In this document: positions 6,299 through 57,823 of the stretch, piece after piece
Numbering within the stretch: the stretch's first letter is position 1
How the letters are laid out: the number at the start of each line of letters is the position of its first letter
NCBI GenBank assembly: GCA_017469925.1
Contig: JAFUFK010000016.1
Coordinates: forward strand, 248,001-312,000
DNA: 64,000 nt
DNA from: Bacteroidaceae bacterium
GTDB taxonomy: Bacteria; Bacteroidota; Bacteroidia; Bacteroidales; Bacteroidaceae
Direction of reading: 5' to 3'
Program-made: the position numbers and the translations under genes
The notes under the pieces: model-generated
What the model was told of the DNA's origin: nothing
Database searches by the model: none
The model's input: only the letters and a program-made list of their open reading frames with translations

Positions 6299-6306
6299 CA
6301 AATATA
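6299..6306 (-). promoter_or_regulatory. -7 box TATATTTG for uvrA
   Basis: Matches TAnnTTTG, with a weak CTTG at 6327-6330 in the -33 position. The start codon is about 33 bp downstream. The palindrome array begins 41 bp upstream of the -33 position. Confidence 0.55.
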
Positions 6307-6370
6307 AGAAAAAAGAACCGAAAGCGCAAGAGAAGTCGGGGGGAATATCGGGTAAAGGATGCCCTCGTTT

Positions 6371-6452
6371 GTGCCACCCATGGCACAACCCCGTGCCACC
6401 CATGGCACAGATTCGTGCCACCGATGGCACGCCTTTATGCCACCCATGGCAC
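6371..6452. repeat. Palindrome array A: four 16-bp units, 22-bp period
   Basis: Units start at 6371, 6393, 6415 and 6437. Each is GTGCCA-N4-TGGCAC or one base away from it, separated by 6-bp spacers of unrelated sequence. It lies between divergent uvrA and the GHL10 gene; the rest of this 349-bp gap holds the two promoters. The same unit and period recur at 57272-57353. Confidence 0.9.
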
Positions 6453-6555
6453 AAACGGAGGGCTGTTGGCCCGGCAAAAAACACCCTCTCGGAGGGCTCC
6501 CCTTGCTTGCGAGGATACGAAAAACGGGCTGGAAAGCAAGTAATGCGCCCTTTTA

Positions 6556-33111: not shown

Positions 33112-33289
33112 TGTCAGTACCACTGACACGGCCGTGTCACAACCACTGACAATACCGTGTCACAACCACTGACAATACCATGTCACAACTGCTGACAATA
33201 CCATGTCACGACCGCTGACAATACCATGGCGTTACCGCTGACAATACCGTGTCACGACCGCTGACGCTATAGTGTCAGCCATGCTGCCA
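33112..33289. repeat. Palindrome array C: eight 17-bp units, 23-bp period
   Basis: Units start at 33112, 33135, 33158, 33181, 33204, 33227, 33250 and 33273. Consensus TGTCAC-N5-CTGACA (arms TGTCA/TGACA) with conserved 6-bp spacers ATACCR in the middle of the array. Unit 6 has lost its left arm and unit 8 is degenerate. It fills the gap between greA and the DUF4298 stop. Confidence 0.92.
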
Positions 33290-41168: not shown

Positions 41169-41242
41169 GTAAAAATAATTGATAATTGAAAATTGATAAT
41201 TGAAAATTATGCCTTTCTGTGTGATATTTAATGTTTTTTCAC

Positions 41243-51782: not shown

Positions 51783-51793
51783 CAAAGAAATTG

Positions 51794-51824
51794 AGAATTA
51801 AGAATTAAGAATTAAGAATTAATT
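51794..51824. repeat. GAATTAA tandem repeat
   Basis: Four head-to-tail GAATTAA copies between two divergent promoters. Confidence 0.85.
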
Positions 51825-54979: not shown

Positions 54980-55954
54980 CTATACGATGCTGGTGCGCTT
55001 CGTGAAGTCGATGATTTCGGGGATATAGCCGAAGGCAAGGCCCGTCACCGTATCGGCACAACCGTAATAGACGGCCAGCCGCCCCGTATCGGGGTCGTGC
55101 AGGGCTGCACAGGGGAAGCATACGTTGGGCACGTCGCCCATCAGTTCGTAAGGCATTTGCGGCGAGAGTAGGTAGGGACCACTGCGAGCCAGGACGCGCC
55201 AGGGCTCGTCGAGGTCGAGCAAGGCCGAGCCGAACGAATAGACGTATCCGTTACACGAACGCAGCACGCCATGATAGAGCAGGAGCCAACCCTCGCTTGT
55301 CTCTATGGGCACTGGCCCTGCGCCAATCTTCATACACTGCCATGCACTCTGTTCGAAAGGTGCGGGCGCCATCACGTGGCGGTGCCTGCCCCAGAACTCC
55401 ATGTCGGGCGATTCGCTGTAGAAGATGTCGCCAAAGGGCGTATGTCCTGTGTCGCTCGGGCGGCTCAGCATGGCATAGCGCTCCCCTATCTTGCGTGGGA
55501 AGAGCACTCCGTTCCTGTTGTACGGCAGGAAGGCGTTCTCCAGCACGTGGAAGTCGTGGAAGTCCCTGGTCCAGGCCACTCCGATGGTCGGCCCGTGGTA
55601 GCCGTTGCACCAGGTCACGTAGTATCGGTCGTCAATCAGGCACACGCGCGGGTCGTAGCCATAGTCGCCGACGATGTCGAGCGGCTCGGGGTCGATGTCC
55701 CACCGGATGCCGTCCTGGCTGAAGCCCACATGCAGGGCCATACGGCGGTTTTGGTCGTCGCAACGGAACACGCCCGCATAGCCTTCGCCAAAGGGCACTA
55801 CGGCACTGTTGAAGATACTGTTCGAGGTCGGCAACAAGTCCCTCGGGATGATGGGGTTGCGCCTCGAGCGCCACATGACGCCCTTCGTGCCTTCGGGACG
55901 TTCCTCCCAAGGCATGTTGGGGAGCGGTCTCCCCACAATTTTCAGTTTATTCAT
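54980..55954 (-). CDS. GH130 glycoside phosphorylase
   Basis: 324 aa. GH130 propeller: [65 protein letters not shown] and [24 protein letters not shown]. Family members phosphorolyse beta-mannosides, such as mannosyl-glucose or mannooligosaccharides, to mannose 1-phosphate. The overlap with the MFS gene upstream suggests that the imported disaccharide is the substrate. ATG 55952-55954 is chosen; one two codons earlier is equally possible. Confidence 0.88.
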
Positions 55955-57197
55955 TGTCATAGGTAAAAGGTACAAACCAGGTTATCAGCAGAGCCGGGAT
56001 GGTGCACACGAGCACGAAGAGGAAGAACTCTCGGTACCCCAGCCAGTCGCTTACGAAACCACTCATCATGCCAGGGAGCATGACACCCAGGTTCATGATG
56101 CCCGAGGCAAAGGCATAGTGGGCCATCTGATGCTGCCCGGGCGCCACCTGCTGCATCATGAACAGCGTCAGGCCCACAAAGCCGAACCCGTAGCCGAAAT
56201 ACTCCAGCACGATGCCCGTGCCGATAATCCATAGGCTCTCGGGCTGGTACATCGCCAGGAGCGTATAGGCCACGAAGGGCAGGTTGAAGACCAGTGCCAG
56301 GCGGAACAACGAACGGCGGAGCCCCCTGCGGGCAATGTAGTAGCCCGCCAGTATGGAGCCCAGGACGAAGGCCGCAGCCCCGAACGTACCGTACAGCAGT
56401 CCAATCTGCTGCTCCGTCAGTCCCAGTCCCTGCTCCGCCCGCGAAGCCTTCAGGAACAGGGGCACAATCTTTATCACGAACCCCTCGGCAAAGCGGTAGA
56501 GGATGATGAAACAGATGTAGTAGGCAATGTGGCGTTTACGGAAGAAGTCGCGGAACACGACCCAGAACTCCCCCATCGACGTCTCCCGCTCCGTGCGCGG
56601 CGTTGCGGGCAACATGAAGATGTGGTACACGCCCATGCCCGTCAGCAGCAAGGCCACCAACAGCATTACCACCGTCCAGGCCTGGCGCACGCCCACATGC
56701 CCTATCAGCACCCCCGCCAGCCACACCAGCAGGCCCGTGCCCACAATCTTCGCAATGTTGTAGAAGGCCCCCTGCCAACCGATGAAGCGGGCCTGCTCCT
56801 CGCTCGAGAGCACCTGCATATAGACGCCGTCCGCCGCAATGTCGTGCGTCGCACCGCTCAGGGCCACTATGGCCAGCAGGGCAATCGTCACGGCAAAGAA
56901 TTGAGGCAGACCCAGCGCCAGGGCCACCATTCCGAACACGAGCCCCGACAGCAGTTGCGTAGCCACCACGAAGAACTTCTTCGTCCGGTACATCTCCAAC
57001 AGCGGGCTCCACAGGGGCTTCAGCGTCCACGGCAGCATGATGAGCGAGGTCCAGAAGGCAATCTGTCCGTCGCTCACCCCCATGCCCTTATACATCAGAG
57101 CAGCCACCATGTTCAGCACCACAAACGGCAGTCCCATGGCAAAATACAGGGTCGGAACCCAAGTCCTCGGCGAGTTCATAGCATCAAATTTAGTCAT
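55947..57197 (-). CDS. MFS transporter (sugar or glycoside importer)
   Basis: 416 aa with about 12 membrane segments and AmpG-like traits ([46 protein letters not shown]). By its overlap with the GH130 gene, probably imports a mannobiose- or mannosyl-glucose-like disaccharide. A good promoter lies upstream, and palindrome array B stands 38 bp beyond the -33 box. Confidence 0.85.
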
Positions 57198-57204
57198 GAT
57201 TCGA

Positions 57205-57234
57205 CAAAATTAATGGAAAAAACGGAAACACAAA
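57205..57234 (-). promoter_or_regulatory. Promoter for MFS-GH130 operon
   Basis: TTTG at 57234-57231, 18-bp spacer, TAATTTTG at 57212-57205; the start codon is 8 bp downstream, so the leader is extremely short. Confidence 0.6.
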
Positions 57235-57271: not shown

Positions 57272-57353
57272 GTGCCACTGATGGCACAACCCTGTGCCAC
57301 CCATGGCACAAGTTCGTGCCACCTATGGCACACCCCCGTGCCACCCGTGGCAC
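57272..57353. repeat. Palindrome array B: four 16-bp units, 22-bp period
   Basis: Units at 57272, 57294, 57316 and 57338, each GTGCCA-N4-TGGCAC or one base different, with 6-bp spacers. A decayed fifth unit may follow near 57360. Identical in unit and period to array A at 6371-6452. Confidence 0.92.
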
Positions 57354-57391: not shown

Positions 57392-57823
57392 TCAGACAAA
57401 GCCCAAGCCCTCCTTCGTCACGTCGAACTGGGGCTCCTCCTCGAAGCCGAACCTGCGGAACACTGCGGCCACCTGCTCCTGTTTCTTAGGCGAAATCGCC
57501 CATCGCCCCAGCCGATAGCGGTAGAACTGTCGGCGCGAGCCAAATATCGGGATTATCTCCTCGCGCAAGGCCTGCACCATATACCACGGCACTCTCTTGA
57601 ACAGCCTCGTCATCCCCCACGCCAGCCTCACGGGCTTGGCCGGGACAAGTCGCGGGCACTTGTCGCCCCGACGCGTATTAGGCGTCACGCACATGAGCGC
57701 TTGCACCCTCTCGGGCGCAACCTGTCCCGCCCTCCAGCGCAGGCACTCCTCCTTCATCGGACACTCGTTTTGGAAACACACAGCCCATCTCCTGGGCACA
57801 TCGGAAAAAGTAAGATTAGTCAT
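57392..57823 (-). CDS. DUF6078-like protein
   Basis: 143 aa, basic, cytoplasmic. RRWAVCFQNECPMKEECLRW carries spaced Cys residues, and QFYRYRLGRWAISPKKQEQVAAVFRRFGF follows, as in DUF6078 proteins of Bacteroidales. Function unknown; the Cys cluster could bind metal. Own promoter; array B lies after its stop. Confidence 0.65.
   Translation of the reverse strand: MTNLTFSDVPRRWAVCFQNECPMKEECLRWRAGQVAPERVQALMCVTPNTRRGDKCPRLVPAKPVRLAWGMTRLFKRVPWYMVQALREEIIPIFGSRRQFYRYRLGRWAISPKKQEQVAAVFRRFGFEEEPQFDVTKEGLGFV

Follow-up and report, generated by a model that had tools for sequence, protein, structure and literature searches.

The window analysed here, a 64,000-nucleotide stretch of a Bacteroidaceae bacterium genome (contig JAFUFK010000016.1, positions 248,001 to 312,000), carries two arrays, A and B, each made of four GTGCCA-N4-TGGCAC palindromes whose starts lie exactly 22 bp apart. 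We conclude from sequence comparisons that A and B are probably (at roughly 0.77) binding-site arrays of a protein of the DUF6078 family, whose gene lies beside array B, and we consider it very likely that DUF6078 binds these arrays. DUF6078 was taken as the putative array reader because its gene adjoins arrays, because two of its residues predict bases in the palindrome arms, and because the arms of dispersed arrays match a DUF6078 protein of the same genome.

The exact period of the four palindromes in each array, reported in an earlier note on this DNA, was confirmed by the unit coordinates, and the variation of the 4-bp centres and 6-bp spacers that it described is seen in the sequence. 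Array A has a single mismatch, in unit 4 (ATGCCA), and all four units of array B are perfect. With up to three mismatches allowed, the paired-unit pattern matched 13 times in the window; shuffled sequence gave 0.08 matches on average. The genome (2.87 Mb, 28 contigs, 85.8% complete) holds 14 GTGCCA-type arrays, of which 12 have four units and the other 2 have three; a single-unit search gave 128 matches in all, 100 of them listed with every exact match included, and the 41 exact ones all fall inside those 14 arrays.

Comparison of the proteins encoded next to arrays returned one family of ~145 residues, present near arrays at seven loci in seven genomes, and this family is DUF6078. The window's member matches PF19555 with E = 5.1e-33 and 114.9 bits (gathering score 27), and no further domain was found in DUF6078 in Pfam, NCBIfam, PADLOC or PHROGs. 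Adjacency was counted over the distinct DUF6078 genes from a search of the genus, the 20 weakest matches being left out. A period-22 array lay within 150 bp 3' of 28/117 genes and upstream of 0/117. With a general array score admitting periods of 20–26 and centres of 3–8, for which the highest of 116 shuffles was 13, the stretch 3' of the gene exceeded 13 in 81/116 cases, and a strong array (score at least 20) stood just 3' of the stop codon in 61/116, with a period of 22 in 48 and 23 in 13. Downstream of control genes 7/124 exceeded 13 and 2/124 reached 20, both of them DUF6078 arrays viewed from the adjoining gene; upstream of control genes 4/121 reached 20. Beyond the genus, repeats with a 22-bp step were found in 6/6 records examined out of nine matches, scored on 250 bp (B. 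finegoldii, two of P. distasonis, Treponema saccharophilum and two faecal contigs).

A covariance model built on three units and used to search the genus and the family found arrays in 41/139 genus genomes (E up to 1e-4) and in 8/301 genomes of the family sample (1e-5), five of these 8 belonging to this genus. Assemblies in which the strict array pattern occurs bear the titles Prevotellaceae, Bacteroidales or Bacteroidaceae; some of them, judging by name, presumably come from the rumen. Across 40 arrays from relatives the 22-bp step is kept while the arms vary from one genome to another (GTxyCA-N4-TGy'x'AC, where xy takes many forms, and TTGCCA), and a few arrays mix two arm types. Readers of different specificity are therefore expected.

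Residue differences that follow the arm bases were found in the closest part of the DUF6078 family (45 proteins with arms called by script, 3/45 without a call), where the motif is mostly FGS-x97-x98-Q/H/T-F/Y-Y-R-Y. At residue 97, R or H goes with G at base 1 of the arm and Q, C, S, T or V with T; the exceptions are E, found with C (4 proteins), and K, which occurs where the array has both G and T (2). At residue 98, A or P goes with T at base 4 and S, T or R with C, R also occurring with A (2). On the script-called arms, agreement was 36/36 from residue 97 to base 1 (the six K/E proteins set aside) and 40/40 from residue 98 to base 4 (C or T only). After clustering at 70% identity the corresponding tables read 16/0/0/8 and 11/0/0/15. 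A scan of all 147 alignment columns against hand-called arms, with no column chosen beforehand, also returned residue 97 as best for base 1 (0.95; runner-up 0.81) and residue 98 as best for base 4 (0.91; runner-up 0.58). In a weak AlphaFold2 model the C-terminal part has three helices, the second of which starts at residue 97. The start of a recognition helix is where DNA contact would fall, and R/H-G and A/P-T contacts are expected in the major groove.

The third line of evidence comes from within genomes. Dispersed arrays matched an array-linked DUF6078 of the same genome in 14/19 genome-arm combinations, against a permuted mean of 2.5 and maximum of 9. The 19 are those with a known home array (the array beside the gene) among 25 overall; the main arm of each array was used, and G022, G070, G077 and G096 were left out. 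The window's genome itself encodes three DUF6078 paralogs, each with a home array plus dispersed copies. The paralog beside array B has 13 further arrays in the genome. The paralog on contig C12 has CTGCCATACTRTGGCAG units on a 23-bp step behind its gene, and C2 and C20 carry two more of its arrays, of three units each. The third (C25:1079-1492) has TGTCA-N7-TGACA units on a 23-bp step directly 3' of the gene, and with up to two mismatches this paired pattern occurs genome-wide only there and at array C of the window (Table 1).

Table 1. Positions, in window coordinates, of the arrays and of the features beside them.
Feature	Position	Strand	Remark
Array A, four units, period 22, dispersed copy	6371-6452		Between the divergent uvrA and GHL10 genes
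Left outer flank of array A, GCCCTCGTTT	6361-6370		Inverted repeat with 6453-6463
Right outer flank of array A, AAACGGAGGGC	6453-6463		Inverted repeat with 6361-6370
Array C, TGTCA-N7-TGACA units, period 23	33112-33289		Dispersed array of the third DUF6078 paralog (C25)
MFS gene beyond array B	55947-57197	-	PF07690; several relatives have a primase-helicase gene here
Array B, home array, four units, period 22	57272-57353		38 bp past the DUF6078 stop codon
DUF6078 gene, 143 aa, motif FGSRRQFYRYR (R97, R98)	57392-57823	-	PF19555, proposed array-binding protein

Several observations weigh against DUF6078 as the array reader. Five of the 19 genome-arm combinations mismatch (G058, G094, G103, G107, G110), which may come from genes missing in incomplete assemblies, and the DUF6078 of G096, not a member of the clade, goes with an array of a different kind. 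The score 3' of the gene did not rise above shuffles for 35/116 DUF6078 genes, and of 15 order-wide loci outside this genome 6 had a strong array on the downstream side, 2 a strong one on the upstream side, 2 a weak one and 5 none. No DUF6078 match was found in 10/41 array-bearing genus genomes, and the association by presence is modest (31/41 array genomes vs 51/98 others, p 0.014), though just 18/139 genus genomes are clean and at least 90% complete. As for the residue code, base 3 has no clear predictor (best column 0.51 in the 147-column scan), the residue classes were named once the data had been seen, and some more distant members depart from the base-4 rule, KTL with GTTTCA being one case. 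Parsimony counts 4 and 7 changes for the two traits, and the tree test is low in power, with one well-supported independent pair per trait, so that shared phylogeny may contribute to the agreement. The DUF6078 model is weak (mean predicted local distance difference test score 54, from a two-sequence alignment), and a whole-model Foldseek search was of no use (best match E 3.5).

Conservation differed between the two arrays when orthologous gaps were compared, a check that the earlier note had proposed. Loci were fetched from 29 relatives, and array A was absent from the uvrA-GHL10 gap in 10/10 of those with both genes alignable. Array B has orthologues in the corresponding position of G008 (3 units, L063/L045) and G103 (4 units, L066), and two more arrays of this genome have counterparts of fewer units in G008 (L019/L065 and L020/L060). 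Between the window's array B and that of G103 the arms are identical at 47/48 positions, vs 20/34 for centres and spacers; arms and spacing are thus held while the rest drifts.

We propose the following mechanism. The C-terminal three-helix part of DUF6078 would be a helix-turn-helix whose second helix, from residue 97, enters the major groove at each half-site, and each palindrome would be bound by a DUF6078 dimer. With a unit spacing of two helical turns, the dimers would be aligned on one face of the DNA and could bind together. The suggestion in the earlier note that the phased units are bound by a protein gains from this much, that DUF6078 adjoins arrays and its residues predict arm bases. 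With less certainty, the home array, which lies between DUF6078 and the next gene, might when bound limit or time transcription past it, and the dispersed arrays, in this genome often right behind a stop codon, might likewise be roadblocks or insulators. A roadblock or insulator role of the arrays is tentative and rather doubtful, slightly more so since the placement recount given below. Of the roles considered, the likeliest is that protein bound cooperatively to the array restricts transcription beyond it, in the first place behind the DUF6078 gene itself. More broadly, DUF6078 proteins could be quickly retargeting array readers, each with its own phased array, matching arrays that are spread or kept, a two-residue specificity switch and several parallel networks per genome, a reading that we regard as plausible while placing it somewhat below even odds. 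Were it true, Bacteroidales and groups outside them would have a system of repeats and protein that lacks a transposase domain.

The alternatives considered here do not all exclude one another: the repeat-proliferation, replication, operator and roadblock readings are partly compatible. In the first of these, DUF6078 takes the place of a transposase and multiplies or maintains its own palindromes, as in repetitive extragenic palindromes (REP) or bacterial interspersed mosaic elements, the arrays being for the most part selfish or neutral copies. The model case is the REP-associated tyrosine transposase (RAYT), whose gene lies among its own palindromes, with dispersed copies, mixed clusters of two paralogs, and protein and palindrome changing together, according to the passages of the report covered (PMC2817692). 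DUF6078 too is accompanied by its own palindromes, by dispersed copies with the same arms, by mixed arrays of two paralogs and by joint change, with sets specific to species. The absence of array A in relatives also fits such spread, as does the pair L023/L026, which shares 28/34 variable positions and ~35 bp of left flank, though not the right flank; shuffled sets reach 0.83, so the shared positions are not decisive. Unlike RAYT, the window's DUF6078 has no Y1/HUH match, in keeping with its lack of further domains. A search for the Y1 transposase PF01797 gave no match over the cut-off in this genome as assembled, the one candidate scoring 20.4 of 23 bits. The arrays stand 3' only in the genus, have a period of 22 or 23, number 14 here and go with a two-residue code. 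Repeats at both gene ends, a trait of REP/RAYT loci, did not appear at any of the 117 genus genes; in the order-wide sample 2/15 loci have them upstream instead. A GTAG tag was seen by eye, without statistics, in 4/28 flanks of this genome's arrays. Traits of a miniature inverted-repeat transposable element (MITE) are partial: several arrays have partial inverted flanks, by eye of the form (A)TGCCnnCGTTT/AAACGnGGCA in several of the 14 and lacking in others, no target-site duplication was seen by eye, and the gap regions are too diverged for a clean empty site. Orthologous arrays that keep their arms while centres and spacers drift are, moreover, unexpected for neutral copies. We rate proliferation of this kind as unlikely.

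The next alternative is a replication module, in which DUF6078 reads the array as an origin of the iteron type, the adjacent PrimPol-VapE helicase is loaded there, and dispersed arrays are secondary or relic. In iteron/Rep and parS/ParB systems a phased repeat array stands beside the gene of its binding protein. DUF6078 arrays are likewise phased and beside a putative reader gene, and a helicase-primase gene is adjacent in a number of relatives; they differ in lying on chromosomal contigs, with several paralogs per genome and many dispersed arrays. A BT4734-like gene lies directly downstream of DUF6078 on the same strand at 27/117 loci (22/39 in the closest clade), and an array scoring >13 stands behind DUF6078 in 25 of these 27. 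In P. distasonis the BT4734-like protein has BT4734-like_N, VapE-like and DUF3874 domains with PrimPol and helicase/primase matches, and the array sits between DUF6078 and this replication-type enzyme gene. However, 90/117 loci have no BT4734-like gene in the stretch examined (~700 bp downstream in most), and among the 26 proteins scanned beside this genome's own arrays none is BT4734-like; one dispersed array of G046 (L133) does have such a gene adjoining. We hold a replication module to be improbable.

We hold it similarly improbable that DUF6078 is a regulator whose arrays are operators controlling the promoters of nearby genes. The nearest parallel is BldC, a small helix-turn-helix protein that forms multimers on head-to-tail short direct repeats at promoters, as far as the passages covered describe it (PMC5859096). 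DUF6078 would likewise be a small helix-turn-helix protein that binds repeats as a multimer; its putative sites differ in being palindromes on a two-turn spacing that stand behind the gene at the home locus. By eye, A and B start ~40 bp upstream of the -33 position of a plausible minus-strand promoter, as the earlier note had it, with a TANNTTTG-like -7 box at 6299-6306 for A and at 57205-57212 for B, both on the minus strand. The relation does not hold as a general rule. The 14 arrays of this genome lie between 10 tandem, 1 divergent and 3 convergent gene pairs; a promoter could follow in the 11 tandem and divergent cases, and the 3 arrays between convergent genes have none to act on. The same note had taken placement without regard to promoters together with variable periods as evidence against regulation; placement does vary, and the period is constant. 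Eight of the 14 arrays start no more than 40 bp from a stop codon, which in the case of L017 is that of a putative open reading frame, and a profile scan of the 26 flanking proteins found no common function. With these points, the absence of array A from all ten alignable relatives and the 0/117 count on the gene's own 5' side, operators at the uvrA and MFS promoters are weakly supported, and an operator of uvrA is unlikely. Array B may affect the MFS promoter, since array and promoter region stay together in three species, the promoter side being conserved in G008 and G103. A sigma-54 promoter was rejected as the source of TGGCAC, the -12 TTGC being at the wrong spacing.

A wider preference for gene 3' ends across relatives was claimed and then dropped, because a recount did not support it. 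A first placement count of 54 arrays gave 20 convergent, 19 tandem, 6 divergent and 9 undetermined, with wrong gene calls for some of this genome's arrays; the redone count gave 9 convergent, 26 tandem, 7 divergent and 12 undetermined (convergent vs divergent p 0.80). We make no placement claim for the 40 arrays of relatives, because two gene-calling scripts disagree there and the calls are rough.

A much more remote candidate is an effect on mRNA, exerted by RNA hairpins in its untranslated regions. The home array sits right behind the stop codon, and arms change in a compensating way between species (96.1% of cells paired; covariation 0.110 vs 0.045 shuffled), but a symmetric DNA site would give the identical signature. 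A strict 22/23-bp period that leaves the spacers free is in line with DNA turns, no G-U preference on the transcribed strand is seen by eye in mismatched units, a thymine contact in DNA would suit the pairing of A/P with T, and the units match no Rfam family.

The arrays can hardly be explained as a common dispersed minisatellite that has no partner protein, although slippage makes tandem repeats with variable spacers and Porphyromonas has similar-looking repeats (PMC4596501, in part), since this leaves gene adjacency, the residue-base code and the same-genome arm match unaccounted for. Those repeats, the BrickBuilt MITE of P. gingivalis, are intergenic, with 19 copies in one strain, a 23-nt tandem unit, leader and tail segments and up to 22.8 repeats, by the parts of the report covered (PMC4596501). 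Compared by description, they share with the DUF6078 arrays their occurrence in Bacteroidales, intergenic position, copy number and unit length of comparable size; leader and tail segments and the higher repeat number set BrickBuilt apart, and the passages covered name no partner protein.

Clustered regularly interspaced short palindromic repeats (CRISPR) have longer repeats, separated by unique spacers that are alike in length, and are accompanied by cas genes. They were ruled out by the 16-bp units with 6-bp spacers and the lack of an Rfam match (cas genes not searched). In a literature search outside which most subscription journals lay, we found no mention of DUF6078 and no description of this system, and a search by terms of one further report, seen in part, gave no 22-bp repeat (PMC5771137). 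The proposed DUF6078-array system would give a testable molecular role to a protein family of unknown function, and a natural residue-to-base code, read from sequence, that predicts sites genome by genome. It also raises the question of how reader and site arrays stay matched as both change. Should the arrays affect transcription or the structure of the chromosome, they would amount to a kind of genome punctuation of which no earlier description was found.

DUF6078 also occurs outside the order. The Treponema saccharophilum plasmid pTS1 carries a DUF6078 gene (L307, 1922-2359) with GTTTCA-type repeats directly behind it, and the presence of the family in a spirochaete suggests transfer across phyla. 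Viral carriage was rejected: the strict array pattern had no match in viral_contigs, and DUF6078 searches of the same collection confirmed no relative. Five faecal contigs labelled phage in INPHARED encode DUF6078; they are possibly chromosomal.

Some further observations were made on DUF6078 neighbourhoods and on repeats of the genome. At two loci from another family of the same order (L323, L327), the palindrome array lies upstream of DUF6078 and the downstream side has none. Of seven neighbours of DUF6078 loci picked by eye, six match restriction-modification or candidate defence families; at L296, L298, L300, L302, L304 and L306 the gene stands beside restriction-modification, AAA/Toprim-type, RhuM or other candidate defence genes. 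A ~260-bp stretch of this genome, 80% identical between L019:5984-6237 and L026:4260-4515, is unrelated to the arrays. Within the window, Tandem Repeats Finder (TRF) reported short AT-rich 7-bp tandem repeats at 41175-41208 and 51789-51822.
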